Positions 3,807 to 43,700 of a stretch of 64,000 bases of DNA are shown here, one piece after another. Under the pieces are notes generated by a model that saw only the letters and a program-made list of their open reading frames with translations, did not search any database and was not told where the DNA came from. The stretch spans positions 15,126,801-15,190,800 of the forward strand of contig JARWKL010000015.1 in the NCBI GenBank assembly GCA_029961685.1, in the 5' to 3' direction. The stretch is from Aristolochia californica (lineage: Eukaryota > Streptophyta > Magnoliopsida > Piperales > Aristolochiaceae). Positions within the stretch are counted from its first letter, which is position 1. Each line of letters begins with the position of its first letter. The position numbers were made by a program, and so were the translations under genes.

Positions 3807-3982
3807 ATGAAAATTTAAGAGTTCAAGTGTGAAAAAAAATTTGAAAACTATAAAAAAAGTAAGTGAAGAAAATTATTTCACGCACTAAATATGAATGAAA
3901 ATTTAAGAGTTCAAGTGTGAAAAAAAATTTGAAAACTATAAAAAAAGTAAGTGAAGAAAATTATTTCACGCACTAAATATGA
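3807..3982 (+). repeat. Perfect 88-bp tandem duplication inside a monomer
   Basis: The segment starting ATGAAAATTTAAGAGTTC at 3807 is followed directly by a second copy at 3895, and I read the two 88-bp copies as identical. It makes the 3613 monomer about 586 bp long, a small deletion of about 7 bp near 3675 (CAGATACGAATTATC) partly offsetting it. Identity, against the usual several percent divergence between neighbours, points to a recent event or an assembly artefact. Confidence 0.93.
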
Positions 3983-17740: not shown

Positions 17741-18801
17741 GGTTGGATATTTACCAGAGCCAAACAACCCACATTTTGCCTATCCTTAAAAATCACAGAC
17801 ACTTTTTGGAATTATCTCTCTTAGCATTTGTGCATTTCCATTTTGGATGTTCAAATTTTTTTTAGATCCAAACTTGAGTTTTCACTCTCCCATTTTTCTA
17901 GTAAACAAAAACGATATAAGGCAAACAGATCGCTACAAAATGAAAATTTTAGAGTTCCTGTGTGCAAAAAAATTTGAAAACTATAATAAATGTAAGTGAA
18001 GAAAATTATTTCACGCAAAAAAAATGAACTCCAAATTTTTGTTATCCACGTTAGGGAAATTCCACTAGTACAACCCCCTAATAATAGCTTGGTGGAATTT
18101 TGTAGGAAATAAAATTCTAACTGATCCTAACATGTTTTAATTGTGGTGGATATGCATGCCAGAAACATGTTGAGGATGCAAGTGACCTAATGATCCCGAA
18201 ATTTCAAGGAGTAGAAAAAATTAAATTCTCAAGTTAACGTGTGGTTGGATACTTACCAGAGCCAAACAACCCACTTTTTGCCTATCCTTAAAAATCACAG
18301 ACACTTTTTGGAATTATCTCTCTTAGCATTTGTGCATTTCCATTTTGGATGTTCAAATTTTTTTTCAGATCCAAACTTGAGTTTTCACTCGTCCATTTTT
18401 ATCGTAAACAAAAAAGATATAAGGCAAATAGATCGCACCAAAATGAAAATTTTAGAGTTCATGTGTGCAAAAAAATAGATATAAGGGAAATAGATCGCAA
18501 CAAAATGAAAATTTTAGAGTTCATGTGTACAAAAAAATTTGAAAACTATATAATAAATGTAAGTGATGAAAATTATTTCATGCACTAAAATTGAACTCCA
18601 AAATCCATGTACGGGAAATTCCACTAGTACAACGCCCAAATAATAGCTTGGTGGAATTTTATAGGAAAGAGACTTCTAACTAATCCTAACATGTTTTAAG
18701 TGTGGTGGATATGCAAGCCACAAACAAATTGATGATGCAAGTGGCCTAATGATCCAAAAATTTCAAGTAGTAGAAAAAATTAAATTCTCAAGTTAACGTG
18801 T
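17741..18801 (+). repeat. A2-to-A3 transition monomers, one with a 62-bp duplication
   Basis: The 17741 monomer still has a GTTATCC motif. The 18243 monomer is the first of the continuous run with CTCCAAAATCC. It is about 559 bp long because the segment starting AGATATAAGG at 18,415 is repeated from 18,477, 62 bp downstream. The copies differ at a few sites (GGCAAAT/GGGAAAT, GCACC/GCAAC, GTGCA/GTACA). Confidence 0.85.
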
Positions 18802-21800
18802 GGTTGGATATTTACCAGAGCCAAACAACCCACTTTTCCTATCCTTAAAAATCACAGATACTTTTTTGAATTATCTCTCTCAGCATTTGTGCATTTCCAT
18901 TATGGATGTTCAAATTTTTTTTAAAATCCAATCTTTAGTTTTAACTCTCCAATTTTTCTCGAAAACAAAACAGATATAAGGCAAATAGATCGCAACAAAA
19001 TGAAAATTTTAGAGTTCATGTGTGCAAAAAAATTTGAAAACTACAATAAATAGAAAATTATTTCACACACTAAAAATGAACTCCAAAATCCATGTTTGGG
19101 AAATTCCACTAGTACAACCCCCTAATAATAGCATGGTGGAATTTTATAGGAAAGAGACTTCTAACTGATCCAAACATGTTTTAAGTGTGGTGGATATGCA
19201 TGCCACAAACATGTTGAGGATGCAAGTGGCCTAATGATCCAAAAATTTCAAGGAGTAGAAAAAATTAAATTCTCAAGTAAACGTGTAGTTGGATATTTAC
19301 CAAAGCCCAACAACCAACTTTTTACCTGTCCTTAAAAATCACAGATACTTTTTGGAATTATCTCACTCAGCATTTGTGCATTTCCGTTTTGGATGATCAA
19401 ATTTTTTTTCAGATCCAAACTTGTGTTTTCACTCTCCCATTTTTCTTATTAACAAAAATATATAAGGCAAATAGATCGCAACAAAATGAAAAATTTAGAG
19501 TTCATGTGTGCAAAAAAATTTGAAAACTATATAATAAATGTAAGTGAAGAAAATTATTTCACTCACTAAAATTGAACTCCAAAATCCATGTTTGGAAAAT
19601 TCCACTAGTACAACCCCCTAATAATAGCTGGGTGAAATTTTATACAAAAGAGACTTCTAACTGATCCTAACATGTTTTAAGTGTGGTGGATATGCATGCC
19701 ACAAACATGTTGAGGATGCAAGCGGCCTAATGATCCAAAACTTCAAGGAGTAGAAAAAATTAAATTCTCAAGTTAACGTGTGGTTGGATATTTACCAGAG
19801 CCAAACAACCCACTTTTTGCCTATCATTGAAAATCACAGATACTTTTTGAAATTATCTCTCTCAGCATTTGTGCTTTTCCATTTTGGATGTTCAAATTTT
19901 TTTTCTGATCCAAACTTGAGTTTTCACTCTCCCATTTTTCTCGTAAACAAAAAAGATATAAGGCAAACAGATCACAACAAAATGAAAATTTTAGAGCTCA
20001 TGTGTGCAAAAAAAATTGAAAACTATATAGTAAATGTAGATTAAGAAAATTAACTCATGCACAAAAAATGAACTCCCAAATCCATGTTTGGGAAATTCCA
20101 CTAGTACAGCCCACTAATAATAGCTTAGTGGAATTTTATAGGAAAGTGACTTCTAACTGATCCTATCATGTTTTAAGTGTGGTGGATATGCATGCCAGAA
20201 ACATGTTGCGGATGCAAGTGGCCTAATGATCCAAAAATTTCAAGGTGTAGAAAAAAATAAATTCTCAAGTTAACGTGTGGTTGGATATTTACCAGAGCCA
20301 AACAACCCACTTTTTGCCTATCCTTAAAAATCACAGATACTTTGTAGAATTATCTCTCTCACCATTTGTGCATTTCCATTTTGGATGTTCAAATTTTTTT
20401 CATATCCAAACATGAGTTTTCACTCTCCAATTTTTCTTGTTAACAAAAATATATAAGGCAAATAGATCGCAACAAAATAAATATTTAGAGTTCATGTGTG
20501 AAAAATAATTTGAAAACTATATAATAAATGTAGGAGAAGAAAACTATTTCACGCACAAAAAATGAACTCCAAAATCCATGTTTGGGAAATTCTACTAGTA
20601 CAACCACCTAATAATAGCTGGGTGGAATTTTATAGGAAAGAGACTTCTAACTGATCCTAACATGTTTTAAGTGTGGTGGATATGCATTCCACAAACATGT
20701 TGAGGATCCAAGTGGCCTAATGATCCAAAAATTTCAAGGAGTAGATAAAATTAAATTCTCAAGTTAACGTGTGGTTGGATATTTGCCAGAGCCAAACAAC
20801 CCACTTTTTGCCTATCCTTAACAAGCACAGATACTTTTTAGAATTATCACAGTCAGCATTTGTGCATTTCCATTTTAGATGCTCAAATTTCTTTTCAGAT
20901 TCAAACTTGAGTTTTCACTCTCCCATTTTTCGCGTAAACAAAAAAGATATAAGGCAAATAGATCGCAACAAAATGAAAATTTTAGAGTTTATGTGTGCAA
21001 AACAATTTAAAAAATATATAATAAATGTAAGTGAAGAAAATTATTTAACGCACTAAAAATGAACTCCAAAATCCATGTTATGGAAATTCCACTTGTACAA
21101 CCCCCAAATAATAGCTTGGTGGAATTTTATAGGAAAGAGACTTCTAACTGATCCTAACATATTTTAAGTGTGGTGGATATGCATGCCACAAACATGTTGA
21201 GGATGCACGAGGCCTAATGATCCAAAAATTTCAAGTAGTAGAAAAAATTAAATTCTCAAGTTAACGTGTGGTTGGATATTTACCAGAGCCGAACATCCCA
21301 CTTTTTGCCTATCCTTAAAAATCACAGATACTTTTTTGAATTATCTCTCTCAGCATTTTTGCATTTCCATTTTGGATGTTCAAATTTTTTTTCAAATCCA
21401 ATCTTTAGTTTCCACACTCCCATTTTTATCGTAAACAAAAAAGATATAAGGCAAACAGATCACAACAAAATGAAAATTTTAGAGTTCATGTGTGCAAAAA
21501 ACTTTGAAAACTATAATAAATAGAAAATTATTTCACGCACTAAAATTGAACTCCAAAATCCATGTTTGGAAAATTCCACTAGTACAACCCCCTAATAATA
21601 GCTTGGTGGAATTTTATAGGAAAGAGACTTCTAACTGATCCTAACATGTTTTAAGTGTGGTGGATATGCATGCCACAAACATGTTGAGGAAGCAAGTGGC
21701 CTATTGATCAAAAAATTTTGAGTAGAAAAAATTAAATTCTCAAGTTAACGTGTGATTGGATATTTACCAGAGCCAAACAACCCACATTTTGCCTATCCTT

Positions 21801-24800
21801 AAAAATCACAGGTTCTTTTTGAAATTATCTCTCTCAGCATTTGTGCATTTCCATTTTGGATGTTCAAATTTTTTTTCAGATCCAAAATTGAGTTTTCACT
21901 CTCCCATTTTTCTCGTAAACAAAAAAGATATAAGGCAAACAGATCGCAGCAAAATTAAAATTTTAGAGTTCATGTATGAAAAAAATTTGAAAACTATATA
22001 ATAAATGTAGGTTAAGAAAATTATCTCACGCAGTAAAAATGAACTCCAAAATCCATGTTTGGGAAATTCCACTAGTACAACCCACTAATAATCACCTGGT
22101 GGAATTTTTTAGGAAAGAGACTTCTAACTGATCCTATCATGTTTTAAGTTTGGTGGATATGCATGCCACAAACATGTTGAGGATGCAAGTGGCCTAATGA
22201 TCCAAAAATTCAAGGAGTAGAAAAAATTAAATTCTCAAGTTAACGTGTGGTTGGATGTTTACCAGAGCCAAACAACCCACTTTTTGCCTATCCTTAAAAA
22301 TAGCAGATACTTTTTGGAATTATCTCTCTTAGAATTTGTACATTTCCATTTTGGATGTTCAAATTTCTTTTCAGATCCAAACTTGAGTTTTCAATGTCCC
22401 ATATTTCTCGTTAAAAAAATAGATATAAAGCAAATAGATCGCCACAAAAAGAAAATATTAGAATTCATGTGTGCAAAAAAATTTGAAAACTATATAATAA
22501 ATGTAAGAGAAGAAAATTATTTCACGCCCTAAAAATAAACTCCAAAACCCATGTTTGGAAAATTCCACTAGTACAACCCCCTAATAATAGCTTGGTTGAG
22601 GAAAGAGACTTCTAACTGATCCTAACATGTTTTAAGTGTGGTGGATATGCATGCCACAAACATGTTGAGGATGCAAGTGGCCTAATGATCCAAAAATTTA
22701 AAAGAGTAGAAAAAATTAAATTCTCAAGTTACCGTGTGGTTGGATATTTACAAGAACCAAACAACCCCCTTTTTGCCTATCCTTAAAAATCACAGCTACT
22801 TTTTTTAAATTATCTCTCTCAGCATTTGTACATTTCCATTTTGGATGTTTAAATTTTTTTTCAGTTCCAAACTTGAGTTTTCACACTGCCATTTTTCTCG
22901 TAAGCAAAAAAGATATAAGGCAATTAGATAGCAACCAAATGAAAATTTTAGAGTTCATGTGTGCAAAAAAATTTGAAAGCTATATAATAAATGTCAGTGA
23001 AGAAAACTATTTCACGCACTAAAAATGAACCCCAAAATCCATGTTTGGGAAATTCCACTAGTACAACCCCCTAAAAATAACTTGGTGGAATTATATAGGA
23101 AAGAGACTTTTAACTGATCCTAACTTGTTTTAAGTGTGGTGGATATGCATCACACAAACATGTTGAGGATGCAAGTGGCCTAATGAACCAAAAATTTCGA
23201 ATATAAAAAATTAAATTCTCATGTTAACGTGTGGTGGGATATTTACCAGTGCCAAACAACCCACTTTTTGACTATCCCTAAAAATCATAGATACCTTTTG
23301 GAATTATCTCTCTTAGCATTTCAGCATTTCCATTTTGGATATTCAAATTTTTTTCAGATCCAAACTTGTGTTTTCACTCTCCCATTTTTCTTGTAAACAA
23401 AAAGGATATAAGGCAAATAGATCGCAACAAAATGACAATTTTAGAGTTCATGAGTGCAAAAAAATTTGAAAAATATATAAAAAATGTAAGTGAAGGAAAC
23501 TATTTCACGCACTGAAAATGAACTCCAAAATCCATATTTTGGAAATTCCACTAATACAACCCCCGAATAATAGTTTGGTGCAATTTGAAAGGAAAGAGAC
23601 TTCTAACTGATCCTAACATGTTTTAATTGTGGTGGATATGCATGCCACAAACATGTTGAGGATGCAAGTGGCCTAATGATCCAAAAATTTCAAGGAGTAG
23701 AAAAAATTAAATTCTCAAGTTAACGTGTGGTTGGATATTTACCAGAGTAAAACAACCCACTTTTTGCCTATCCTTAAAAATCAGATATACTTTTTGGAAT
23801 TATCTCTCTCAGCATTTGTGCATTTCGATTTTGTATGTTCAAATTTTTTTTATTATCCAAACTTGAGTTTTCACTCTCCCTTTTTTCTCGTAAACAAAAA
23901 AGATATATGGCAAATAGATCGCAACAATATGAAAATTTTAGAGTTCATGTGTGCAAAAATATTTGAAAACTATATAAAAATTTAAGTGTAGAAAATTATT
24001 TCACGCACTAAAAATGAAATTCAAAATCCATGTTTGAGAAATTCCACTAGTACAACGCCCTAATAATAGCTAGGTGGAATTTTATAGGAAAAAAACTTCT
24101 AACTGATCCTAACATGTTTTAAGTGTGGTGGATATGCATGCCACAAACAATATGAGGATGCAAGTGCCTAATGATCCAAAATTTTCAAGGAGTAGAAAAA
24201 ATTAAATTCTCAAGTTAACTTGTGGTTGGATATTTATCAGAGAAAAACAACCCACTTTTTTTCTTTCCTTAAAAATCACAGATACTTTTTGGAATTATCT
24301 CTCTTAGCATTTGTGCATTTCCTTTTTTTATGTTCAAATTTTTTTTCTGATCCAAACTTGAGTTTTCACTCTGCCATTTGTCTAGTAAACAAAAAAGATA
24401 TAAGGCAAACAGATTGCAACAAAATGAAAATTTTAGAGTTCATGTGTGCAAAAAAATTTGAAAACTATATAATAAAAGTAGGTGATGAAAATTATTTCAC
24501 GCACTAAAAATGAACTCCAAAATCCATGTTTGGGAAATTCCACTAGTACAACCCCTAATAATAGCTTGGTGCAATTTTATAGGAAAGAGACTCCTAGCTG
24601 ATCCTATCATGTTTTAAATGTGGTGGATATGCATGCCACAAACATGTTGAGGATGCAAGACCCCTAATGATCCAAAAATTTCAAGGAGTAGAAAAAATTA
24701 AATTCTCAAGTTAAAGTGTGGTTGGATATTTACCAGAGCCAAAGAACCCACTTTTTGCCTATCCATAAAAATCACAGATACTTTTGGGAATTATCTCTCT

Positions 24801-27800
24801 CAGCAATTGTGCATTTCCATTTTGGATGTTCATATTTTTTTTGAGATCCAAACTTGAGCTTTCACTCTCACATTTTTCGCGTAAACAAAAAAGATATAAG
24901 GCAAATAGTTTGGAACAAAATGAAAATTTTAGAGTTCATGTGTACAAAAAATTTGAAAACTACATAATAAAAGTTAGTGAAGAAAACTATTTCACACACT
25001 AAAAATGAACTCCAAAATCAATGTTAGGGAAATTCCACTTGTAAAACCCCCTAATAATAGCTTGGTGGAATTTTATATGAAAGAAACTTCAAAATGATCC
25101 TCACATGTTTTAAGTGTGGTGGATATGCATGCCACAAACATGTTGAGGATCCAAGTGGCCTAATGATCCATAAATTTCAAGAAGTAGAAAAAATTAAATT
25201 CTCAAGTTAACGTGTGGTTGGATATTTACCAGAGCCAAACAACCAACTTTTGGCCTATCCTTAAAATCACAGATACTTTTGGAATTATCTCTCTCAGATT
25301 TTGTCTATTTCCATTTTGGATGTTCAATTTTTTTTTGAGGTCGAAACTTGAGTTTTCACTCTCCCATTTTTCTCGTAACCAAAAAAGATATAAGGCAAAT
25401 AGATCGCAACGAAATGAAAATTTTAGAGTTCATGTGTACAAAAAAATTTGAAAACTATATAATAAATGTAAGAGAAGAAAACTATTTCACGCACTACAAA
25501 TGAACTCCAAAATGCAGATTTGGGAAATTCCACTAGTACAACCCCCTAATAATAGCTTGGTGGAATTTTATAGGAAAGAGACTTCTAACTGATCCTAAAA
25601 TGTTTTAAGTGTGGTGGATATGCATGCCACAAATATGTTGAGGATGCAAGTGGCCTAATAATCAAAAAATTTCAAGGAGTAGAAAAAATTAAATTCTCAA
25701 GTTAACGTGTGGATGGATATTTTACTGGAGCCAAACAACCAACTTTTTGCCTATCCTTAAAAATGATAGATACTTTTTGGAATTATCTCTCTCAGCATTT
25801 GTGCATTTCCATTTTGGATGTTCGAATTTTTTTTTCAGATCCAAACTTTTGTTTTCACTCTCCCATTTTTCTCGTAAACAAAAAAGATATAAGGCAAATA
25901 CATCGCAACAAAGTGAAAATTTTAGAGTTCATGTGTGCAAAAAAAATTGAAAACTATACTTAAAATTTAAGTGAAGAAAATTATTTCATGCACTAAAAAT
26001 GAACTTCAAAATCGATGTTTGGGAAATTCCACTAGTACAACGCCCTAATAATAGCTTGGTGGAATTTTATAGGAATGAGACTTCTAACCGATCCTAACAT
26101 GTTTTAATTGTGGTGGATATGCATGCCACAAACATGTTGAGGATGCAAGTGGCCTAATGATCCAAAAATTTCAAGGAGTAGAAAAAATTAAATTCTCAAG
26201 TTAATGTGTGGTTGGATATTTACCTGAGTCAAAACCCCCCACTTTTTGCCTATCCTTAAAAATCACAGATACTTTTTGGAATTATCTCTCTCAGCATTTG
26301 TGCATTTCCATTTTGGATATTCAATTTTTTTTTCCAGATCCAACCTCGAGTTTTGACTCTCCTATTTTTCTCAAAAATAATAAAGATATAAGGCAAACAG
26401 ATCGCAACAAAATGAAAATTTTAGACTTCATGTGTGCAAAAAAATTTGAAAACTATATAAAAAATTTAAGTGAAGAAAATTATTTCACACACTAAAAATG
26501 AACTTCAAAATCGATGTTTCGGAAATTCCACTAGTACAACGCCCTAATTATAGCTTGGTGGAATTTTATCGGAAAGAGACTTCTAACTGATCCTAACATG
26601 TTTTAAGTGTGGTGGATATGCTTGCCACAAACAAGTTGAGGATGCAAGTGGCCTAAAGATACAAAAATTTCAAGGAGTAGAAAAAATTAAATTCTCAAGT
26701 TCACGTGTGGTTGGATATTACAAGAGCCAAACAACCCACTTTTTGCCTATCCTTAAAAATCACAGACACTTTTTGGAATTATCTCTGTCGGGATTTGTGC
26801 ATTTCCATTTTGGATGTTCAAATTTTTTTTCAGATCCAAACTTGAGTTTTCATTCTCCCATTTTTCTCGTAAACAAAAAAGATATAAGGCAAACAGATCG
26901 CAACAAAATGAAAATTTTAGGGTTCATGTGTGCAAAAAAAATTGAAAACTATATAATAAATGTAAGTGAAGAAAATTATTTCATGCACTAAAAATGAACT
27001 CTAAAATCCATGTTTGGGAAATTCCACTAGTAGAACCCCCTAATAATAGCTTAGTGGAATTTTATTGGAAAGCTTCTAACTGATCCTAACATGTTTCAAG
27101 TGCGGTGGATATGTATGCCACAAACATGTTGAGGATGCAAGTGGCCTAATGATCCAAAAACTTCAAGGAGTAGAAAAAATTAAAATCTAAAGTTAATGTG
27201 TGGTTGGATATTTACCAGAGCCAAGCAACCCACTTTTTTTCTATCCTTAAAATTCACTGATACTTTTTGGAAATATCTCTCTCAGCATTTGTGCATTTCC
27301 AATTTGGATATTCAAATTTTTTTTAAGATCCAAACTTGAGTTTTCACTCTCCCATTTTTCTCTTAAACAAAAAAGATATAAGGCAAATAGATCACAACAA
27401 AATGAAAAGTTTAGAGTTCATGCGTGCAAAAAAAATTGAAAACTATGTAATAAATGTAAGTGAAGAAAATTATTTCACGCACTAAAAATGAACTCCAAAA
27501 TCCATGTTGGGAAATTCCACTATTACCCCTAATATAGCTTGGTGGAATTTTATAGGAAAGAGACTTCTAACTGATCCTAACATGTTTTAAATGTGGTGGA
27601 TATGCATACCACAAACATGTTGAGGATGCAAGTGGCCTAATGATCCAAAAATTTTAAGGAGTAGAAAAAATTAAATTCTTAAGTTAACGTGTGGTTACCA
27701 GAGCCAAACAACCCACTTTTTTCCAATCCTTAAAAATCATAGATACTTTTTGGAATTATCTCTCTCAGCAATTGTGCATTTCCATTTTGGATGTTCAAAT

Positions 27801-28178
27801 TTTTTTTCAGATCCAAACTTGATTTTTCACTCTCCCATTTTTCTCGTAAACAAAAAAGATATAAGGTAAACAGATCGCAACAAAATGAAAATTTTAGAGT
27901 TCATGTGTGCAAAAGAATTTGAAAACTATATAATAAATGTAGGTGAAGAAAATTATTTCACGCACTAAATATGAACTCCGAAATCCATGTTTGGGAAATT
28001 CCACTAGTACAACCCCCTAATAATTGCTTGGTGGAATTTTATAGGAAAGAGACTTCTAACTGATCCTATCATGTTTTAAATGTGGTGGATATGCATGCCA
28101 CAAATATGTTGAGGATGCAAGTGGCCTAATGATCCAAAAATTTCTAGTAGAAAAAATTAAATTCTCAAGTTAACGTGT
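18802..28178 (+). repeat. Arm A block A3: about 495-bp monomers
   Basis: Anchors are 18802, 19287, 19782, 20279, 20773, 21270, 21754, 22249, 22738, 23233, 23729, 24224, 24720, 25216, 25711, 26210, 26709, 27202 and 27693. Linked states are: AACTCCAAAATCCATG (8 bp lost against AAAGTTTTGTTATCC), ACTATATAATAAATG (TA gained), GCCACAAACATG, and AAGTGGCCTAATG. Higher-order signs: 18802 and 21270 share CCAATCTTTAGTTT and a shortened AATAAATAGAAAATT. Monomers 19782 and 21754 share CCCACTAATAAT and CCTATCATG. Monomers 19287 and 20279 share TTAACAAAAATATATAAGG. Monomers 25711 and 26210 share AAAATCGATG and ACAACGCCC. The 27693 monomer lacks about 7 bp after its anchor. Confidence 0.88.
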
Positions 28179-28304
28179 GGTAGGATATTAACTAGAGCCA
28201 AACAACCCACTTTTTGCCTATCCATAAAAATCACATATACTTATTTGAATTATCTCTTTCAGCATTTTTGCATTTCCGTTTTCGAAGTTCAAATTTTTTT
28301 TTCA
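28179..28304 (+). repeat. Last, truncated arm-A monomer
   Basis: Begins GTGTGGTAGGATATTAAC and follows the A consensus through GCATTTTTGCATTTCCG to the long T run and TTCAA near 28,304, where monomer sequence stops. It is more diverged than typical neighbours (TTCGAAGTTC for TTGGATGTTC). Confidence 0.88.
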
Positions 28305-28330
28305 AAAATTCTCAAGTTAACGATTATTTT
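28303..28330. other. Orientation-switch junction between arms A and B
   Basis: Arm A sequence ends in the T run plus CAA. A 17-base patch AAATTCTCAAGTTAACG (28,306-28,322), which is the + oriented monomer start, follows. The next bases, ATTTTGTTGTGATCG from about 28,326, are in B orientation and lie in the middle of a B monomer. So two joins sit within about 25 bp: an internal A deletion of about 385 bp, then an inversion join. No target-site duplication or mobile element is visible. Confidence 0.85.
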
Positions 28331-28436
28331 GTTGTGATCGTTTTGTTTACGAGAAAAGTGGGACATGCTTGAATTTGAAAAGTATCTCTGATTTTGAAGG
28401 ATAGGCAAAAAGTGGGTTGTTTGGCACGGGTAAATA
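28323..28436 (-). repeat. First, doubly truncated arm-B monomer
   Basis: It starts mid-monomer at the junction. It then lacks about 60 bp: GAATTTGAAAAGTATCTCTG joins what are normally two separate motifs, removing the segment with TTGAACATCCAAAATGG and GCTGAGAGAGATAATTCC. A run of A residues is present at both original flanks. Confidence 0.82.
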
Positions 28437-31400
28437 TCCTACCACACGTTAACTTGAGAATTTAATTTTTTCTACTCCTTGAAATTTTTGGATCATTAGA
28501 TCATTTGCATCTTCAACATCTTTTATGCATGCATACCCACCACTTTTAAAACCTATTAGAATCAATTGAAATCTCTTTCTTATAAAATTCCACCAAGCTA
28601 TTAGGGGTTGTACTAGTGGAATTCCAAACATGGATAACAAAACTTTGGAGTTCATTTTTAGTGCATGAAATAATTTTCTTCACTTACGTTTATTATAGTT
28701 TTCAATTTGTTTTGCATACATGAACTCAAAAATTTTCATTTTGTTCTGAACGTTTTGTATACGAGCAAAGTGGGACAATTTTGGATTTAAAAAAAAATTG
28801 AACATCCAAGATGGAAATGCACAAATGCTGAGAGAGATAATTCAGAAAAAGTATCTCTGATTTGGAAGGATAGGCAAAAAGTGGGTTGTTTGGCTCTGGT
28901 AAATATCCAACCACATGTTAACTTGAGAATTTAATTTTCCCTACTCCTTGAAATTTTTGGATCATTAGGTCATTTGCATCTTCAACATGTTTCATGCATG
29001 CATACCCACCACATTTAAAACATGTTAGGATCAATTAGAAATCTCCCTCTTATACAATTCCACCAAGCTATTAGGGGTTGTACAAGTGGAATTTCCCGAA
29101 CGTGGATAACAAAACTTTGGAGTTTATTTTTAGTGCAAGAAATAATTTTCTTCACTTAAATTTATTATAGTTTTCAATTTTTTTGCTTACATGAACTCTA
29201 AAATTTTCATTTAGTTGTGCTCATTTTGTTTACGAGAAAAGTGGGACAAGTTTGGATTTGAAAACAAATTGAACACCCAAAATGGAAAACCACAAATGCT
29301 GAGAGAGATAATTCCAAAAAGTATCTCTGATTTTGAAGGATAGACAAAAAGTGGGTTGTTTGGCTTTGGTAAATATCCAACCACACGCTTGAGAATTTAA
29401 TTTTTTCTACTCCTTGAAATTTCTGAATCATTAGGTCATTTGCATCTTCAATATGTTTCTGGCATGCATACCCACCACATTTAAAACATGTTAGGATCAA
29501 TTAGAAATCTCTTTCTTATAAAATTCCACCAAGCTATTTGGGGTTGTACTAGTGGAATTTCCCAAACATGGATAACAAAACTTTGGAGTTCATTTTAAGT
29601 GAGTGAAATAATTTTCTTAACTTACATTTATTATAGTTTTCAAAATTTTTTGCATACATGAACTCTTAAATTTTCATTTTGTTGTGATCGTTTTGTTTAC
29701 GAGGAAAATGGGACAAGTTTGGATTTGAAAAAAATTTGAACATCCAAAATGAAAACGTACAAATGCTGAGAGAGATAATTCAAAAAAGTGTCTCTGATTT
29801 TGAAGGAGAGGCAAAATGTGGGTTGTTTGGCCTTGGTAAATATCCAACCACACGTTAATTTGAGAATTTAATTTTTTCTACTCCTTGAAATTTTTGGATC
29901 ATTAGGTCAAATGCATCTTCAACATATTTCTGGCATGCATACCCACCACATTTAAAACATGTTAGTATCTATTAGAAATCTCTTTCTTATAAAATTCCAC
30001 CAAGCTATTAGGTGTTGTACTAGTGGAATTTCCCTAACATGGATAACAAACTTTGGAGTTCATTTTTAGTGAGTGAAATAATTTTCTTAACTTACATTTA
30101 TTATAGTTTTCAAATTTTTTTGCATACATGAACACTAAAATTTTCATTTTGTTGTGATCGTTTTGTTTATGAGAAAAGTGGGACAAGTTTGCATTTGAAA
30201 AAAAATTGAACATCCAAAATGGAAACGTATAAATGCTGAGAGAGATAATTCCAAAAAGTGTCTATGATTTTGTAGGATAGGCAAAATGTGGGTTGTTTGG
30301 CCCTGGTAAAATATCCAACCACACGTTAACTTGAGAATTTAATTTTTTCTACTCCTTGAAATTTTTAGATCATTAGGTCATTTGCATCTTCAACATGTTT
30401 CTGGTATGCATACCCACCACATTTAAAACATGTTAGGATCTATAAGAAATCTCTTTCTTAAAAAATTCCACCAAGCTATTTGGGGTTATACAAGTGGAAT
30501 TTCCCAAACATGGATGACAAAACTTGGAAGTTCATTTTTAGTGCGTGAAATAATTTTCTTCACTTACATTTATTATAGTTTTCAAATTTTTTTGCATACA
30601 TGAACTTTAAAATTTTCATTTTGTTGTGATCGTTTTGTTTACGAGAAAAGTGGGACAAGTTTGGATTTGAAAAAAAAAATTGAACATCCAAAAGGGAAAG
30701 GCACACATGCAGAGAGAGATAATTCCAAAAAGTATCTCTGATTTTGAATGATAGGTAAAAAGTGAGTTGTTTGGCTCTGGTAAAAATATCCAACCACACG
30801 TTAACTTGAGAATTTAATTTTTTGTACTCCTTGAAATTTTTTTATCATTAGGTCATTTGCATCTTCAACATGTTTTTGGCATGCTTACCCACCACATTTA
30901 AAACATGTTAGGATCAATTAGAAATCTCTTTCACATAAAATTCCACCAAGTTATTTGGGGTTGTACTAGTGGAATTTCCCAAACATGGCTAACAAAACTT
31001 TGGATTTCATTTTAGTGCGTTAAATAAATTTTTTCGCTCACATTTATTATAGATTTCAAATTTTTTTGCATACATGAACTCTAAAATTTTCATTTTGTTG
31101 GGATCGTTTTGTTTACGAGAAAAATGGGACAAGTTTGGATTTGAAAAAAAATTGAACATCCAAAATGGAAACGTACAAATGCTGAGAGAGATAATTCCAA
31201 AAGTGTCTCTGATTTTGAAGGATAGGGAAAATGTGGGTTGTTTGGCCTTGGTAAATATCCAACCGCATGTTAACTTGAGAATTTAATTTTTTCTACTCCT
31301 TGAAATTTTTGGATCATTAGGTCATTATCATCTTCAACATGTTTTTGGCATGCATACCCACCACATTTAAAACATGTTAGGATCTATTAGAAATCTCCTT

Positions 31401-34400
31401 CATATAAAATTCCACCAAGCTATTAGGGGTTGTACTAGTTGAATTTCCCAAACATGTATAACAAAACTTTGGAGTTCATTTGTAGTACGTGAAATTATTT
31501 TCTTCACTTACATTTATTATAGTTTTCAAATTTGTTTGCATACATGAACTCCTAAATTTTCATTTTTTTGTGATCATTTTGTTTATGAGAAAAGTGGGAC
31601 AAGTTTGGATTTGAAAAAAAAAAATTGAACATCAAAAATGGAAAGGATCAAATGCTGAGAGTGATAATTCCAAAAAGTATCTCTGATTTTGAACGATGGG
31701 TAAAAAGTGGGTTGTTTGGCTCTGGTAAAAATCTCCAACCACACATTAACTTGAGAATTTAATTTTTTGTACTGCTTGAAATTTTTTTATCACTAGGTCA
31801 TTTGCATCTTCAACATGTTTTTGGCATGCTTACCCACCACATTTAAAACATGTTAGGATCAATTAGAAATCTCTTTCTTAAAAAATTCCACCAAGTTATT
31901 TGTGGTTGTACTAGTGGAATTTCCCAAACATGGATAACAAAACATTGGAGTTCATTTTTAGTGCATGAAATAATTTTCTTCACTTACATTTATTATAGTT
32001 CTCAAATTTTTTTGCATACATGAACTCTAAAATTTTTATTTTTTTGTGATCGTTTTGTTTACGAGAAAAGTGGGACAAGTTTTGATTTGAAAAAAAAAAT
32101 TGAACATCCAAAATGGGAAGGCACAAATGCTGAGAGAGATAATTCCAAAAAGTATCTCTGATTTTGAACGATAGGCAAAAAGTGGGTTGCTTTGCTCTGG
32201 TAAAAATATCCAACCACATGTTAACTTGAGAATTTAATTTTTTAAACTCCTTGAAATTTTTTGATCACTAGGCTATTTGCATCTTGAACATGTTTTTGGC
32301 ATGCTTACCCACCACATTTAAAACATGTTAGGATCAATTAAAAATCTCTTTCTTAAAATATTCCACCAAGTTATTTGGGGTTGTACTAGTGGAATTTCCA
32401 AAACATGGATAACAATACTTTGGAGTTCACTTTTAGCGCGTTAAATAATTTTTTTCACTTACATTTATTATAGATTTCAAATTTTTTAGCATACATGAAC
32501 TCTAAAATTTTCATTTTGTTGTGATCGTTTTGTTTATAAGAAATGTGGGGCAGGTTTGGATTTGAAAATCAATGGAACATCAAAAATGGAAATGCACAAA
32601 TGTTGAGAGAGATAATTCCAAAAAGTATCTCTAATTTTGAAGGATACGCAAAAAGTGGGGTTTTTGGCAATGGTAAATATCCAACCACATGTTAACTTGA
32701 GAATTTAATTTTTTCTGCTCATTGAAATTTTTGGATCATTAGGTCACTTGCATCCTCAACATGTTTCTGGCATGCATATCCACCACACTTAAAACATGTT
32801 CGGATCAGTTAGAAGTCTCTTTCCTCAAAAATTCCACCAAGCTATTATTAGGGGGTTGTACTAGTGGAATTTCCCAAACAAGGATAACAAAACTTTGGAG
32901 TTCATTTTTAGTGAGTGAAATAATTTTCTTAACTTACATTTATTATAGTTTTCAATTTTTTTTTGCATACATGAACTCTAAAATTTTCATTTTGTTGTGA
33001 TCGTTTTGTTCACGAGAAAAGTGGGACAAGTTTGGATTTGAAAATAATTGAACATCCAAAATGTAAACGTACAAATGCAAAGAGAGATAATTCCAAAAAG
33101 TGTCTATGATTTTGGAGGATAGGTAAAATGTGGGTTTTTTGGTATCCAACCACACATTAACTTGAGAGTTTAATTTTTTCTACTCCTTGAAATTTTTGGA
33201 TCATTAGGTCATTTGCATCTTCAACATGTTTCATGCATGCACACCCACCACATTTAAAAAATGTTAGTATCAATTAGAAATCTCTTTCTTATAAAATTCC
33301 ACCAAGCTATTAGGGGTTGTACTAGTGGAATTTCCCAAACATGGATAACAAAACTTTGGAGTTCATTTTTTAGTGCGTGAAATAATTTTGTTCACTTACA
33401 TTTATTATTGTTTTCAATTTTTTTTGCATACGTGAACTCTAAAATTTTCATTTTGCTGTGATCGTTTTTTTACGAGAAAAGTAGGACAAGTTTGGATTTG
33501 AAAAAAAATAGAACATCCAAAATGGAAATGCACAAATGCTGAGAAAGATAATTCCTAAAGTATCTCTGATTTTGAAGGATAGGCAAAAATTGGGTTGTTT
33601 GGCCATCGTTAATATCCAACCACACGTTAACTTGAGAATTAAAATTTTTCTGCTCCATGAAATTTTAGGATCATTAGGTCATTTGCATCTTCAACATGTT
33701 TCTAGCATGTACACCCACCACAGTTAAAACATGTTAGGATATATTAGAAATCACTTTCTTATAAAATTCCACCAAGCTATTAGGGTTTGTACTAGTGGAA
33801 TTTCAAAAACATAGATAACAAAACTTTGGAGTTCATTTTTAGAGCGTGAAATAATTTACTTCACTTGCATTTATTATAGTTTTCAATTTTTTTTGCATAC
33901 TTGAACTCTAAAATTTTCATTTTGTTGTGATCATTTTGTTTACAAGAAAAATGGGACAAGTTGTATTTGAAAAAAAAATTGAACATCCAGAATGGAAATT
34001 CACAAATTCTGAGAGAGATAATTCAAAAAATTATCTCTGATTTTGAAGGATAGGCAAAAAGTGGGTTGTTTGTCTCCGGTAAATATCCAACCACACGTTA
34101 ACTGGAGAAATTAATATTTTGTACTCCTTAAATTTTTTTGATAACTAGATCATTTGCATCTTCAACATGATTTTGGCATGCATACCCACCACATTTAAAA
34201 CATGTTAGGATCAATTAGAAAACTCTTTCTTATAAAATTCCACCAAGTTATTTGGGGTTGTACTAGTGGAATTTCCCAAACAAGGTTAACAAAACTTTGG
34301 AGTTCATTTTTACCGCGTTAAATAACTTTTTTCACTTACATTTATTATTGATTTCAATTGTTTTTGCATACATGAACTCTAAAATTTTCATTTTGTTGTG

Positions 34401-34557
34401 AACGTTTTGTTTACGAGAATAGTGGGACAAGTTGGATTTTTAAAAAAAATCCAACATCCAAAATGGAAATGCACAAATGCTGAGAGAGATAATTCAAATA
34501 AAGTATCTCTGATTTGGAAGTATAGGCAAAAAGTGGGTTGTTTGGCTCTGGTAAATA
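28437..34557 (-). repeat. Arm B monomers, first block
   Basis: Anchors are 28437, 28906, 29376, 29843, 30314, 30789, 31258, 31734, 32209, 32680, 33145, 33615, 34086 and 34558, spaced 465-476 bp. Subtype C monomers (30789, 31734, 32209) read GGTAAAAAT before the anchor, GAACGAT or GAATGAT, and often TTTTTTGTACT after it. The 33145 monomer lacks about 10 bp just before its anchor. The block also contains an arm-A-like patch near 32.8 kb. Confidence 0.9.
32735..32860 (-). repeat. Arm-A-like patch inside arm B
   Basis: On the minus strand this stretch reads AGCTATTATTAGGGGGTTGT in complement, i.e. the A state ACCCCCTAATAATAGC. It also has AGACTTCTAACTGATCC (A) rather than AGATTTCTAATTGATCC (B), GTGTGGTGGATATGC (A) rather than ATGTGGTGGGTATGC (B), and GAGGATGCAAGTGACC (A) rather than GAAGATGCAAATGACC (B). 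Both flanks return to B states. Four linked A-diagnostic states in about 125 bp make chance mutation unlikely. Confidence 0.85.
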
Positions 34558-34774
34558 TCCGACCACTAGTTAACTTGAGAATTTAATTTTCCCTACTCCT
34601 TGAAATTTTTGGATCATTAGGTCATTTGTTTACGAGAAAAGTGGGACAAGTTTGGATATGAAAAAAATTGAACACCCAAAATGGAAATGCACAAATGCAG
34701 AGAGAGATAATTCCAAAAAGTATCTCTGATTTTGAAGGATAGATAAAAAGTAGGTTGTTTGGCTCATGTAAATA
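34558..34774 (-). repeat. Truncated arm-B monomer (217 bp)
   Basis: GGATCATTAGGTCATTTG joins directly to TTTACGAGAAAAGTGGG near 34,628, removing about 253 bp. That missing part includes the dyad and the CCACTAGTACAACC region. TTTG is present at both original flanks, consistent with deletion at short homology. Confidence 0.9.
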
Positions 34775-37124
34775 TCCAACCACACGCTTGAGAATTTAAT
34801 TTTTTCTACTCCTTGAAAATTTTGGATCATTAGATCATTTGCATATTCAACATGTTTCTGGCATGAATACCCACCACATTTAAAACATGTTAGGATCAAT
34901 TAGAAATCTCTTTCTTATAAAATTCCACCAACCTATTAGGGGTTGTTCTAATAGAATTTCCCAAACATGGATAACAAAACTTTGGAGTTCATTTTTAGTG
35001 AGTGAAATAATTTTCTTAACATACATTTATTATAGTTTTCAATTTTTTTTGCATACATGAACCCTAAAATTTTCATTTAGTTGTGATCGTTTTATTTAGG
35101 AGAAAAGTGGGACAAGTTTGGATTTGAAAAACAATTGACCATCAACAATGTAAACGTACAAATGCTGAGAGAGATAATTCAAAAACGTATCGTAGATTTT
35201 GAAGGATAGGGAAAAATTGTGGGGTTGTTTGGCCGTGGTAAATATCCAACCACACGTTAACTTGAGATATTAGTTTTTTCTACTCCTAGAAATTTTTGGA
35301 TCATTAGGTCATTTGCATCTTCAATATGTTTCTAGCATGCATACCCACCACTTTTAAAATATGTTTGAATCAATTAGAAATCACTTTCTTATAAAATTCC
35401 ACCAAGCTATTAGGGGTTGTACTAGTGGAATTTCCAAAACATGGATAACAAAAATTTGGAGTTCATTTTTAGTGCGTGAAATAATTTTCATCACTTACAT
35501 TTATTATAGTTTTCAATTTTTTTTGCATGCATCAACTCTAAAATTTTTATTTTGTCGTGATCGTTTTGTTTACGAGAAAAGTGGGACAACTTAGATTTAA
35601 AAAAAATTGAACATCCAAAATGGAAATGCACAAATGCTGAGAGAGATAATTCCATAAAGTATCTCTGATTTTGAAGAATAGGCAAAAATTGGGTTGTTTG
35701 GCCATGGTAAATATACAACAACACGTTAACTTGAGAATTTAATTTTTTCCACTCGTTGAAATTTTTGGATCATTAGGTCATTTGCATCTTCAACAGGTTT
35801 CTGGCATGCACACCCAACACATTTAAAACATGTTACGATCTACAACAAATCTCTTTCTAATAAAAATTCCACCAAGCTATTAGGGTTCTACTAGTGCAAT
35901 TTCCCAAACATGGATAACAAAACTTTGGAGTTCATTTTTAGTGCGTGAAATAATTTTATTCACTTACATTTATTATAGTTTTCAAATTTTTTTGCATACA
36001 TGATCTCTAAAATTTTCATTTTTTTGTGATCGTTTTGTTTACAAGAAAAGTGGGACAAGTTTGGATTTGAAAAAAAATAGAACATCCAAAATGGAAACGC
36101 ACAATTGCTGAGAGAGATAATTCCAAAAAGTATCTCTGATTTTGAAGGATAGGAAAAAATGGGGTTGTTTGGCCATGTTAAATATCCAACCACACGTTAA
36201 CTTGAGAATTTAATTTTTTCTACTCCTTGAAATTTTTGGATCATTAGGTCATTTGCATCTTCAACATATTTCTGGCATGCACACCCACAACATTTAAAAC
36301 ATGTTAGGATTTATTAGAAATCTCTTTCTTTAAAATTCCACCGAGCTATTAGCGGTTGTACTAGTGGAATTTCCTAAACATGGATAACAAAACTTTGGAA
36401 TTCATTTTTAGAGCATGAAATAATTTTATTCACTTACATTTAATATATTTTTCAAATTTTTTTGCATACATGAACTCTAAAATTTTTATTTTGTTGTGAT
36501 CATTTTGATTACGAGAAAAGTGGGACAAGTTTGGACTTGAAAAAAAAATTGAACAACCAAAATGGAAATTCAAAAATGCTAAGAGAGATAATTCCAAAAA
36601 TTATCTCTGATTTTGAAGGATAGGCAAAAAGTGGGTTGTTTGGCTCAGGTAAATATCCAACCACACGTTAACTTGAGAATTTAATTTTTTCTACTCGGAA
36701 TTTTTGGGTCATTAGGTCATTTGCATCTTCAACATGTTTCTGGCATGCATACCCACCACATTTAAAAAATGTCAGTATCAATTAGAAATCTCTTTGTCTT
36801 AAAATTCCATCATGCTATTAGGGGTTGTACTAGTGGAATTTCCCAAACATGGATAACAAAACTTATGAGTTCATTTTTAGTGAGTGAAATAATTTTCTTA
36901 AATTACATTTATTATAGTTTTCAAAATTTTTTGCTTACATGAACTCTAAAGTTTTCGTTTTGTTGTGATCATTTTGTTCACGAGAAAAGTGGGACAAGTT
37001 TGGATTTTAAAAAAAAATTGAACCTCGAAAATGGAGACGTACAAACGCTGAGAGAGATAATTCCAAAAAGTATCTCTGATTTTGAAGGATAGGCAAAAAG
37101 TGGGGGTTTTGGCTTAGGTAAATA
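34775..37124 (-). repeat. Arm B monomers, second block
   Basis: Anchors 34775, 35245, 35714, 36185, 36656 and 37125, spaced 469-471 bp. Ordinary B monomers. Some have GGCCATGG before the anchor and others GGCTCAGG. Near 36,697 the TCCTTGAAATT motif is shortened to TCGGAATT. Similar TCGAAATT losses recur at about 39,157, 47,598, 60,727 and 61,197, so that short form is a heritable variant. Confidence 0.9.
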
Positions 37125-37710
37125 TCACACCGCACGTTTACTTGAGAATTTAATTTTTTCTACTCCATGAAATTTTTGGATCATTAGGTCATTTGCATCT
37201 TCAACATGTTTCTGGCATGCATACCCACCACTTTTAAAACATGTTAGAAACAATTAGAAATATCTTTCTTATAAAATTCCACCAAGCTATTAGGGGTTGT
37301 ACTAGTAGAATTTCCCAAACATGGATAACAAAGCTTTGGAGTTCATTTTTAGTGCGTGAAATAATTTTCATCACTTACATTTTTTATTGTTTTCAATTTT
37401 TTTTGCAGACAAGAACTCTAAAATTTAGCATTTTGTTGTGATCATTTTCATTAAGAGAACACTGGGAAAATTTTGGATTTGAAAACAATGACCTCCATAG
37501 TTTTGTTATCCATTTTTTGCATACGTGAACTGTAAAATTTTCATTTTGTTGTGATTGTTTTTTTTACGTGAAAAGTGGGACAAGTTTGGATTTGAATAAA
37601 AATTGAACATAAAAAATGGAAACACACAAATGTTGAGAGAGATAATTCCAAAAAGTATCTATGATTTTGAAGGATAGGCAAAAAGTAGGTTGTTTGGCCA
37701 TGGTAAATAT
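37125..37710 (-). repeat. Over-long arm-B monomer (586 bp) with re-duplicated segment
   Basis: About 115 bp longer than its neighbours. The segment from the T run and GCAGACAAGAACTC to GGATTTGAAAA is followed by a short inverted piece. The same segment then starts again as TTTTTGCATACGTGAACTG and runs on as TTTGGATTTGAATAAAAATT. The two passes differ (GAGAACACTGGG versus GTGAAAAGTGGG), so the second pass came from another monomer type. Confidence 0.85.
37487..37513 (+). repeat. 27-bp micro-inverted patch in arm B
   Basis: Reads AATGACCTCCATAGTTTTG then TTATCCAT on the plus strand. That matches the + oriented consensus (AATGAACTCCAAAGTTTTG...) at 25 of 27 positions, while all surrounding sequence is in minus orientation. 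The corresponding minus-oriented segment lies about 150-165 bp upstream in the same monomer (37,321-37,347). Confidence 0.85.
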
Positions 37711-40700
37711 CCAACCACACGTTAACTTGAGAATTAAAATTTTTCTACTCCTTGAAATTTTTTGATCATTAGGTCATTTGCATCTTCAACTTGTTTCTGG
37801 CATGCATACCCACCACATTTAAAACATGTTAGGATCTATTAGAAATCTCTTTCTTATAAAATTCCTCCAAGCTATTAGGGGTTGTACTAGTGGAATTTCC
37901 CAAACATGGATAACAAAACTTTGGATTTCATTTTTAATGAGTGAAATAATTTTCTTCACTTACATAAATTATAATTTAAATTTTTTTTTGCATACATCAA
38001 CTCGAAACTTTTCATTTTGTTGTGATCGTTTTGTTTACGAGAAAAGTGGGACAAGTTTGGATTTTAAAAAAAAATTGAACATCCAAAAAGGAAACATACA
38101 AATGCTGAGAGAAATAATTCCAAAACGTATCTCTGATTTTGAAGGATAGGAAAAAATTGGGGGTTTTGGCCATGGTATATATCAAACCACACGTTAACTT
38201 GAGAATTTAATTTTGTCTTCTCGAAATTTTAGGATCATTAGATCATTTGCATCTTCAACATGTTTCTGGCTTGCATACCCACCACATTTAAAACATGTTA
38301 GGATCTATTAGAAATCTCTTTCTTATAAAATTCCACCAAGCTATTAGGGGTTGTACTAGTGGAAGTTCCCAAACATGGATAACAAAACTTTGGAGTTCAT
38401 TTTTAGTGCGTGAAATAAATTTCTTCACTTACATTTATTATAGTTTTTAATTTTTTTTGCATACATAAAATCTAAAAAGTTCATTTTGTTTTGATCGTTT
38501 TCTTTACGAGAAAAGTGGGAAAAGTTTGGATTGGAAAAAAAATTGAACATCCAAAATGGAAACGTACAAATGCTGAGAGAGATAATTCATAATTGTAACT
38601 CTGATTTTGAAGGATAGGCAAAAAGTGGGTTGTTTGGCTCATGTTAATATCCAACCACACGTTAACTTGAAAATTTATTTTTTTCTACACCTTGAAATTT
38701 TTGGATCATTAGGTCATTTGCATCATCAACATGTTTCTGGCATGCACACCCACCACATTTAAAACATGTTAGGATCTATTCGAAATCTCTTTTTATAAAA
38801 TTCCACCTAGCTATTAGGGGTTGTACTTGTGGAATTTCCCAAACATGAATAACAAAACTTTGGAGTTCATTTTTGGTGCGTGAAATAATTTTCTTCATAT
38901 ACATTTATTTTAGTTTTCAAATTTGTTTGCTTACATGAACTTTAAAAAGTTCATTTTGTTTCGATTGTTTTGTTTACGTGAAAAGTGGGACAAGTTTTGA
39001 TTGGAAAAAAAATTGAACATCCAAAATGGAAACGTACAAATGTTGAGAGAGATAATTCATAAAAGTATCTTTGATTTTGAAGGATAGGCAAAAAGTGGGA
39101 TGTTTGGCTCTGGTAAGTATCCAACCACACGTTAACTTGAGAATTTAATTTTTTCTACTCGAAATTTTTGGATCATTAGATCATGTGCATCTTCAACATG
39201 TTTTTGGAATGCATACCCACAACTTTTAAAACATGTTAGAATCAATTAGAAATCTATTTCTTAAAAAATTCCACCAAGCTATTAGGGGTTGTACTAGTGG
39301 AATTTCCCAAACATGGATAACAAAACTTTGGAGTTCATTTTTAGTGCGTGAAATGATTTTCTTCACTTACATTTATTACAGTTTTCGAATTTTTTTGCAT
39401 ACATGATCTCTAAAATTTTCATTTTCTTTTGATCGTTTTGTTTACGAGAAAAGTGGGACAAGTTTGCATTTGAAAGAAAATAGAACATCCAAAATGGAAA
39501 TGCACAAATGCTGAGAGAAATAATTCCAAAAAGTATCTCTGATTTTGAACGATAGGCAAAAATTGGGTTGTTTGGCCATGTTAAATATCCAACCATACGT
39601 TAGCTTGAGAATTTAATTTTTTCTACTCGTTGAAATTTTTTGATGATTAGGTCATTTGCATCTTCAACATGTTTCTGGCATGCACACCCACCACATTTAA
39701 AACATGTTAGGATCTATTAGAAATCTCTTTCTTATAAAATTCCACCAAGCTATTAGGGGTTGTACTAGTGGAATTTCCCAAACTTGGATAACAAAACCTT
39801 GGAGTTCATTTTTAGAGCGTGAAATAATTTTATTCACTTACATTTATTGTATTTTTAAAATTTTTTTGCATACATGAACTCAGAAATTTTCATTTTGTTG
39901 TGATCCTTTTGTTTACGAGAAAAGTGGGACAAGTTTGGATTTTGAAAAAAAATTGAACAACTAAAATAGAAACTCACAAATGCTGAGAGAGATAATTCCA
40001 AAAAGTATCTCTGATTTTGAAGGATAGGCAAAACGTAGGTTGTTTGGCTCTGGTAAATATCCAACCACACATTAACTTGAGAATTTATGTTTTTCTACTC
40101 CTTGAAATTTTTGGATTATTAGGTCATTTGCATCTTCAACATGTTTCTGGCATGCATACCCACCACTTTTAAAACATGTTAGAATCAATTAGAAATCTCT
40201 TTCTTATAAAATTCCACCAAGTTGTTGGGGGTTGTATTAGTGGAATTTCCCAAACATGGATAACAAACCTTTGGAGTTCATTTTTAGTGCGTGAAATAAT
40301 TTTCATCACTTACATTTTTTATAGTTTTCAATTTTTTTTGCATACAAGAACTCAAAAATTTATCATTTTGTTGTGATCATTTTCTTTACGAGAACACTGG
40401 GACAAGTTTAGTTTTGAAAAAAAATTGAACATCCAAAATGGAAAGGCACAAATGCTGAGAGAGAAAATTCCAAAAAGTATCTCTGATTTTGAACGATAGG
40501 TAAAAAGTGGGTTGTTTGGCTCTGGTAAAAATGTCCTACCACACGTTAACTTGAGAATTTAATTTTTTGCACTCCTTGAAATTTTTTGATCACTAGGTCA
40601 TTTGCATATTCAACATGTTTTTGGCATGCATACCCACCACATTTAAAACATGTTATGATCAATTAGAAATCTCTTTCTTATAATATTCCACCAAGTTATT

Positions 40701-43700
40701 TGGGGTTGTACTAGTGGAATTTCTGAAACATGGATAACAAAACTTTGGAGTTCATTTTTAGCGCGAGAAGTAATTTTTTTCACTTACATTTATTATATAT
40801 TTCAAATTTTTTTGCATACATAAACTCTAAAATTTTCATTTTGTTGTGATAGTTTTTTCTACGGGAAAGGTGGGACAAGTTTGGATTTGAAAAAAAATTG
40901 AACATCAAAAATGGAAACGCGCAAATGCTGAGAGAGGTAATTTCAAAAAGTAACTTTAATTTTGATGCATAGGAAAAAATTGGGTTATTTGGCCCTGGTA
41001 AATATCCAACCACACGTTAACTTGAGAATTTAATTTTCCCTTCTCCAAGAAATTTTTGGATCATTAGGTCATTTGCATCTTCAACAAGTTTTTGGCATGC
41101 ATACCCACCGCATTTAAATCATGTTAGGATCAATTAGAAATCTCTCTCTTATAAAATTCCACCAAGCTATTAGGGGTTGTACTAGCGGAATTTCCCAAAC
41201 ATGGATAACAAAACTTTTGAGTTCATTGTTAATGTGTGAAATAATTTTTTTCTCTTACATTTGTTAGAGTTTTCAATTCTTTTACATACATGAACTTTAA
41301 CATTTTCATTTTGTTTCGATTGTTTTGTTTACGAGAAAAGTGCGACAAGTTTGGATTTTAAAAAAAATTGAACATCCAAAATGGAAATGCACAAATGCTG
41401 TGAGAGATAATTCTGAAAAAGTATCTCTGATTTGGAAGGGTAGGCAAAAAGTGGTTTGTTTGGCTCTGGTAAATATCCCACCACACGTTAACTTGAGAAT
41501 TTAATTTTCCCTATTCCTTGAAATTTTTGGATCATTAGGTCATTTGCATCTTCAACATGTTTCTGGCATGCATACCCCACATTTAAAACATGTTAGGATC
41601 AATTAGAAATCTTTCTCTTATAAAATTCCACAAAGCTATTAGGGGTTGTACTAGTGGAATTTCCTAAACATGGATAACAAAACTTTGGAGTTCTTTTTTA
41701 GTGAGTGAAATAATTTTCTTCTCTTACATTTATTATAGTTTTCAATTTTTTTGCATACATGAACTCTAAAATTTTCATTTTGTTGTGATTGTTTTGTTTA
41801 CAAGAAAAGTGGGACAAGTTTGGATTTGAAAAAAAATTGAACATCCAAAATGGAAACGTACAAATGCTGAGAGAGATAATTCCAAAAAGAACCTCTAATT
41901 TTGAAGGATAGACAAAAAGTGGGTTGTTTGACTCTGGTAAATATCCAACCGCACGCTTGAGAATTTAATTTTTTCTACTCCTTGACATTTTTGGATCATT
42001 AGGTAATTTCCATCTTCATCATGTTTCTGGCATGCATACCCACCACATTTAAAACTTGTTAGGATCTATTAGAAATCTCTTTCTTATAAAATGCCTCCAA
42101 TACTTGTGGAATTTCCCAAACATGGATCACAAAACGTTGTAGTTCATTTTTAGTACGTGAACTAATTTTCTTTACTTACATTTATTATAGTTTTTAATTT
42201 TTTTTGCCAACATGAACTCTAAAATTTTCATTTGGTGTGATCGTTTTGTTTACGAGAAAAGTAGGACAAGTTTGGATTTGAAAAAAAATTGAACATCCAA
42301 AATGCAACCGCACAATTGCTGAGAGAGATAATTCCAAAAAGTGTCTCAGATTTTAAAGGATAGGCAAAAAGTGGGTTGTTTGGCCATGGTAAATATCCAA
42401 CCACACGTTAACTTGAGAATTTAATTTTTTCTACTCCATGAAATTTTTCGATCGTTAGGTCGTTTGCATCTTCAACATGTTCTGGCATGCATACCCACCA
42501 CAATTAAAACATGTTAGGATCAATTAGAAATCTCTTTCATATAAAATTCCACCAAGCTATTAGGGGTTAAACTAGTGGAATTTCCCAAACATGGATAACA
42601 AAACTTTGGAGTTCATTTTTAATGAGTAAAATAATTTTCTTAACTGACATTAATTATAGTTTTCAAATTTTTTGGCATTCATGAACTCTAAAATTTTAAT
42701 TTTGTTGTGATCGTTATGTTTATGAGAAAAGTGGGACAAGTTTGGATTTGAAAAAAAGTTGAACATCCAAAATGGAAACATACAAATGCTGAGAGAGATA
42801 ATTCCAAAAAGTATCTCTGATTTTGAAGGATAGGGAAAAATGGGGTTGTTTGGCCATGTTAAATATCCAACACACGTTAACTTGAGAATTTAATTTTTTC
42901 TACTCCTTGAAATTTGTGGATCATTAGGTCATTTGCATCTTCAACATGTTTCTGGCATGCACACCCACAACATTTAAAACATGTTAGGATCTATTAGAAA
43001 TATTTTTTTTTTTATAAAATTCCACAAAGCTATTTGGGGTTGTGGAATTTCCCAAACATGCATTTACAAAACTTTGGAGTTCATTTTTTGTGCGTGAAAT
43101 AATTTTCTTTACTTACATTTATTATAGTTTACAGATTTTTTTGCATACATGAACTCTAAAAAGTTCATTTTGTTTACGGTTAAAGTGGGATAAGTTTGGA
43201 TTGGAAAAAAAATAGAACATCCAAAATGGAAATGTACAAATGCTGAGAGAGATAATTCATAAAAGTATCTCTGATTTTGAATGATAGGCAAAATGTGAGT
43301 TGTTTGGCTCTGGTAAATATCCAACCACACGTTAAATTTAGAATTTAATTTTTTCTACTCTTTGAAATTTTTGGATCATTAGCTCATTTGCATCATCAAC
43401 ATGTTTCTGGCATGCATACCCACCACATTTAAAACATGTTAGAATCAATTAGAGATCTCTTTCTTATAAAATTCCTACACGCTATTAGGGGTTGTACTAG
43501 TGGAATTTCCCAAACATGGATAACAAAACTTTGGAGTTCATTTTTAGTGAGTGAAATAATTTTCTTCACTTTTTTTATAGTTTTCAATTTTTTTTGCATT
43601 CATGAACTCTAAAATTTTCTTTTTGTTGTGATCGTTTTGTTTACGAGAAAAGTAGGACAAGTTTGGATTTGACAAAAAATTGAACATCCAAAATGGAAAC

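Follow-up and report, generated by a model that had tools for sequence, protein, structure and literature searches.

The window analysed here, a stretch of 64 kb, is occupied from end to end by a single AT-rich family of tandem satellite DNA. Its monomers belong to three subfamilies (A1, A2 and B), whose consensus monomers were derived from 30, 19 and 74 full-length copies, respectively. The arrays, and the features of the two scars described below, are as follows (coordinates in the window, strand, feature):

1..18476, minus strand: array of subfamily A1 (period approx. 503 bp, consensus 501 bp)
18477..28287, minus strand: array of subfamily A2 (period approx. 496 bp, consensus 495 bp)
28243..28304, minus strand: truncated last A monomer, with the end of the A arm at 28301-28304
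28288..28300, no strand assigned: TTCAAATTTTTTT, the proposed switch point, present in the end of the A arm (minus) and at phase 327-339 of B (plus)
28304..28322, minus strand: A-oriented templated patch (17 nt exact at 28306-28322)
28323..28325, no strand assigned: ATT, either filler or a slip copy of the following ATT
28326..28377, plus strand: 52-nt piece of B (consensus phase 364-415)
28374..28381, plus strand: gap join; the 54 bp of B phase 416-469 are absent ahead of 28378, with AAAA on either side
28378..64000, plus strand: array of subfamily B (period approx. 471 bp, consensus 469 bp)
37484..37517, minus strand: second scar with an inverted patch (30 of 34 nt match reversed B; 24 nt are uncovered at 37489-37512)

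The array periods include approximately 2 inter-alignment bases per copy that fall outside the consensus. With gaps excluded, the A1 and A2 consensus sequences are 99.4% identical, and those of A2 and B 96.5% identical; the B consensus is without three stretches (16, 11 and 4 bp) that are found in both A1 and A2. Individual monomers diverge on average by about 5-6% from their own consensus and by 9-11% from one another inside a subfamily. No higher-order repeat was seen in the B array, where the mean divergence is flat (0.109-0.113) at lags 1-15. At the A1/A2 boundary (18300-18540) the direction of the monomers is unchanged; the join lies at an A/T run near 18470 and is accompanied by a 62-bp repeat.

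The rate of C>T substitution is highest at CG sites (0.11-0.19), followed by CTG (0.091) and CAG (0.071), the latter values being based on just 15 sites per CHG kind across the three consensus monomers; the baseline is 0.028-0.043 at the remaining CT/CA sites and 0.014-0.048 at CC sites. This excess suggests the mark of CG and CHG methylation, a combination that points to a plant. An Rfam search of 26-31 kb gave nothing at gathering scores, and monomer patterns had no exact match in viral or prokaryote sequence sets, which says little about this satellite. Searches of the open-licence literature with monomer words and with the lengths 471, 496 and 503 bp found no matching paper.

A preliminary description of this DNA had stated that the monomers on the left point one way and those on the right the other. 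This is borne out by all but one of the 142 non-overlapping satellite hits being uniform within their arm: 62 of 62 ending at or before 28310 are on the minus strand (best matches: 35 A1, 24 A2 and 3 B), and 79 of 79 starting after 28310 are on the plus strand. The single hit that straddles this point is also plus (B phase 327-419 at 28288-28381). There is thus one net flip only in the 64-kb window, at approximately 28.31 kb, with a uniform direction on each side and the opposite one across it.

The flip is not a clean inversion, as had already been recognized. Reading from left to right, the A arm is followed by the A-oriented patch of 17-19 nt, 3 further nt, 52 nt of B, the 54-bp gap and finally the regular B array, so that several joins indeed occur inside 150 bp, and the suggestion of a replication-based or end-joining rearrangement fits this anatomy. 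The truncated last A monomer was typed as A by ATTTGAAC (22 copies in the A arm vs 1 in the B arm) and by GGAAATGC (37 vs 11). The B-specific deletions of 16 and 11 bp are both found as early as the 52-nt piece next to the join, the array resumes at phase 1 at position 28378, and the first full B monomer carries the B allele at 16 of 17 diagnostic sites. The deletion reported in the first B monomer is therefore real, its size being 54 bp and not about 60 bp.

The anatomy of the junction, including the patch, can be read directly from the letters. The 17 nt at 28306-28322, the length given in the preliminary description, are found exactly in dozens of monomers, and the match extends to 19 nt (28304-28322) in the B monomer at 49918 only; the label 'monomer start' that had been given to the patch depends on the phase convention. 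The filler matches satellite sequence elsewhere beyond chance, since among 3000 random 24-mers matched in dinucleotide composition, no match reached 17 nt and 4 were of 16 nt. The 35-mer at 28306-28340, which spans the patch/B join, has a single copy in the window; with as many as 3 mismatches allowed, none of 100 shuffles contained it. BLAST offers an alternative in which the filler aligns loosely to B with two gaps, so that it may be strongly decayed B. Because the filler scores 34 in the reversed and 15 in the direct orientation, it is read as a patch that probably stands in for 24 nt of the first B monomer.

The B arm has two discontinuities exceeding 20 bp (34627 and 37488-37513) in addition to that at 28378. 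By simple arithmetic, the chance that such a discontinuity would lie within 52 bp of the flip is approximately 0.3%, which favours the flip and the 54-bp gap being one compound event.

The end of the A arm and the entry into B had been treated as unrelated, yet both carry the same 13 nt. The A1 and A2 consensus sequences each contain exactly one inverted repeat of at least 10 nt, formed by TTCAAATTTTTTT and AAAAAAATTTGAA, the starts of which are 117 bp apart. The B consensus contains no inverted repeat of at least 10 nt, its second half being one T short. Accordingly, the first half is present in 23 copies in the A arm and 22 in the B arm, and the second half in 26 and 1, respectively. The junction sits on this pre-existing inverted repeat: the A arm terminates on one half, and the re-entry into B is in register with the other, following the T run at a distance of 23 nt where 24 nt would be expected (the distance in the B consensus from the end of TTCAAATTTTTTT to phase 364). 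BLAST, unaided, starts the plus-strand B hit as early as 28288 (phase 327).

At least 13 shared nt in register were found in 2 of 40,000 random pairs of an A2 break and a B register, and in 31 of 20,000 random pairs when register was not demanded; the element is AT-rich and was spotted after the fact. The in-register test used a slack of 4, the same for the observed pair and the null, to span the 9-T run. With a narrower slack, the observed overlap is 7 nt (the T run alone), a length that 81 of 20,000 random pairs also attained.

Since the 13 shared nt form the only inverted repeat of at least 10 nt in the A1 and A2 consensus and are in register, we propose, with moderate confidence, that the junction arose when microhomology primed a strand switch at the inverted repeat of the monomer itself, accompanied by short templated patches. 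From the sequence we infer a priming event and the following order of steps: (i) a 3′ end, broken or stalled within an A-type array, would have finished in TTCAAATTTTTTT, (ii) this end would have annealed to the complementary half on a strand of a B-type array, (iii) the annealed end would have primed synthesis or joining on the B strand, reversing the direction of the array, (iv) copying over the first 80 bp or so would have been unstable, with a jump to oppositely oriented satellite for 17-19 nt and then back to B, and (v) 54 bp would have been skipped via the AAAA microhomology, the B array being regular thereafter. Candidate enzymology would be microhomology-mediated template switching, or end joining of the polymerase theta or delta type.

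The second arm does not copy the first: the right arm is of B type and the left of A2 type. Because the 52-nt piece has both B deletions and the first full monomer is B at nearly all diagnostic sites, the A end appears to have met a B-type partner, rather than copying its own arm in its present form. The right arm is B from 28326, and a same-strand foldback of A could yield it only if B had served as an ectopic template or had replaced the arm afterwards; in addition, there are mismatches in the closest upstream pairing partner on the A strand (27909). Mutations accumulated in the monomers on either side do not date the join.

A second scar, absent from the preliminary description, was found at 37.5 kb. 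Apart from the junction, the 24 nt at 37489-37512 form the sole stretch of at least 7 nt that is uncovered by direct-orientation hits. The array exits here in the A8 tract (phase 422) and resumes in the T7 tract (phase 334), with its direction unchanged. These 24 nt score 38 when aligned to B in reversed orientation and 17 in direct orientation, and 400 random 24-mers scored at most 36. The 34-nt patch scores 48, compared with at most 29 in 400 random sequences, a comparison that is biased by its ends having been picked by alignment. There is a competing, weaker direct alignment, in which, with a gap of 3 nt, B resumes at 37497 (phase 321). The nearest copies of the possible template (37317 and 37902) have 5 mismatches each, and 0 of 99 candidate sites have fewer than 4. 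As judged from these alignments, the scars at 28.3 and 37.5 kb would use one pair of tracts, with and without a net flip.

Other parts of the window also bear traces of rearrangement. The B monomer at 32621-33093 contains an A1-like block of 7 consecutive diagnostic sites together with a 4-bp TTAG insert, flanked by B alleles, and this block resembles a conversion-like tract. Three short units of approximately 420 bp in the A1 arm (8264-8683, 11706-12126 and 13139-13560) share an internal deletion and carry B-like tails that run in the A direction; they appear to be one mosaic unit duplicated inside the array. The A-type block in a B monomer and the B-like tails in the A1 arm indicate that A and B have exchanged sequence, and exchange therefore connects the subfamilies that are oppositely directed in this window, be it at this site or at another. 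Further direct-orientation truncation joins, with overlaps of 2-5 nt, are located at 2575-2672, 3675-3895, 17475-17477 and 34625-34628. Clusters of opposite-oriented 12-mers at 11748, 26994, 53710 and 56231 were set aside as chance, as normal monomers align there.

Divergence is not clearly correlated with distance from the junction, B showing no more than a weak trend (Spearman coefficients of 0.005 for A1, p 0.98; -0.12 for A2, p 0.62; and +0.22 for B, p 0.06). There is no edge decay in this test, and the idea that the junction is an old array edge was not supported by it. If anything, the 8 B monomers nearest to the junction (28378-32145) resemble the consensus more closely, with a divergence of 0.0486 vs 0.0620, the lowest of 68 windows of 8 monomers.

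Of the other explanations, plain end joining is the likeliest, although itself unlikely. Two double-strand breaks unrelated to each other, located in an A array and in a B array of inverse orientation, would have been joined with a short templated filler, and the 13 nt would be an A/T coincidence. Alternative end joining typically involves filler, a few extra nt and a microhomology of 4 nt, and all of these (with 3 extra nt) are present at the junction. Moreover, several direct joins in the window have alignment overlaps of 2-8 nt, and micro-homologous joining may be common. Two unrelated breaks, however, would seldom share 13 nt in register, given the 2 cases among 40,000 random breakpoint pairs, and the scar at 37.5 kb falls on the identical pair of tracts.

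An assembly or read artefact, in which two separate arrays were wrongly joined, seems improbable. Long tandem repeats are difficult to assemble, and assembly errors have been suspected at orientation changes in some human arrays, according to the available part of one report (PMC2588610). A false overlap join, however, would be expected in shared sequence, and not in unique filler with a patch and a deletion, and the arms of a chimeric foldback read would be almost identical, whereas the subfamilies are distinct here right up to the join.

A slightly less probable explanation still is that one subfamily long ago underwent a simple foldback (a hairpin-capped or palindromic end) and that homogenization subsequently turned the two arms into A and B: the arms do pair on either side of the junction, 97 nt being 92% complementary across an interval of 137 nt, as any inverted arrays pair somewhere, and A/B sequence exchange did occur, but the diagnostic sites are almost pure on either side of the join and both B deletions are already in the 52-nt piece that adjoins it. 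The energy of the junction hairpin (z -18) was dropped as evidence, being expected from any two inverted arrays.

The proposed strand switch has counterparts in several known systems, compared here on the basis of the available portions of the papers cited. The macro-dyads of Tribolium madens likewise consist of kilobase-scale opposite subarrays of one satellite with a defined inversion site, and dyads of up to tens of kb with hairpin potential are a trait shared with the present array (PMC13081366). Their inversion sites recur thousands of times at approximately 98% identity, and the authors state in the same portion that such satellite symmetries are documented solely in that genus (PMC13081366). 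In contrast, there is one site within our window, its arms are of different subfamilies, and the source, judging from C>T at CAG/CTG, appears to be a plant.

Orientation changes inside a satellite are also described for the human HSATII, GSATII and CER arrays; in the accessible part of that report they are presented as dot plots and a table, whereas the junction described here is read at base level (PMC2588610). In yeast, foldback junctions have stems from 4 bp and loops of a few to thousands of nt, in the sections at hand (PMC7467729), and templated inverted insertions at breaks are given as mostly 5-34 bp (PMC11724301, in the part available). The present junction is similar to these in that a short inverted repeat would prime the reversal, with patches in the 5-34-bp range and microhomology at the far end; the yeast foldback, however, duplicates its own locus, and here the second arm is another subfamily (PMC7467729, PMC10622511 and PMC11724301, as far as their available text goes). 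Nothing on flips was found in the available part of a nanopore study of plant satellite arrays (PMC7004042).

Both strand switching in satellites and templated patches have precedents, and this junction adds a well-resolved case whose scar is unusually easy to read. Direction changes in arrays are often visible merely as a dot-plot feature; here the scar is legible base by base, and it combines microhomology, a templated patch and a sister scar on the same tracts.

A further idea, which we put forward very tentatively and regard as rather doubtful, is that an orientation switch is built into the A-type monomer. The inverted repeat of this monomer, with halves 117 bp apart, would be a recurrent substrate for strand switching, and the loss of a T would have removed it in B. 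If this were true, inverted subarrays should recur genome-wide at both tracts, at least one flank being of A type, and the frequency with which satellite arrays flip would be set by the sequence of the monomer. The idea that a monomer sequence can seed the inversion of an array leads in this way to a prediction that may be checked in any assembly of the species.
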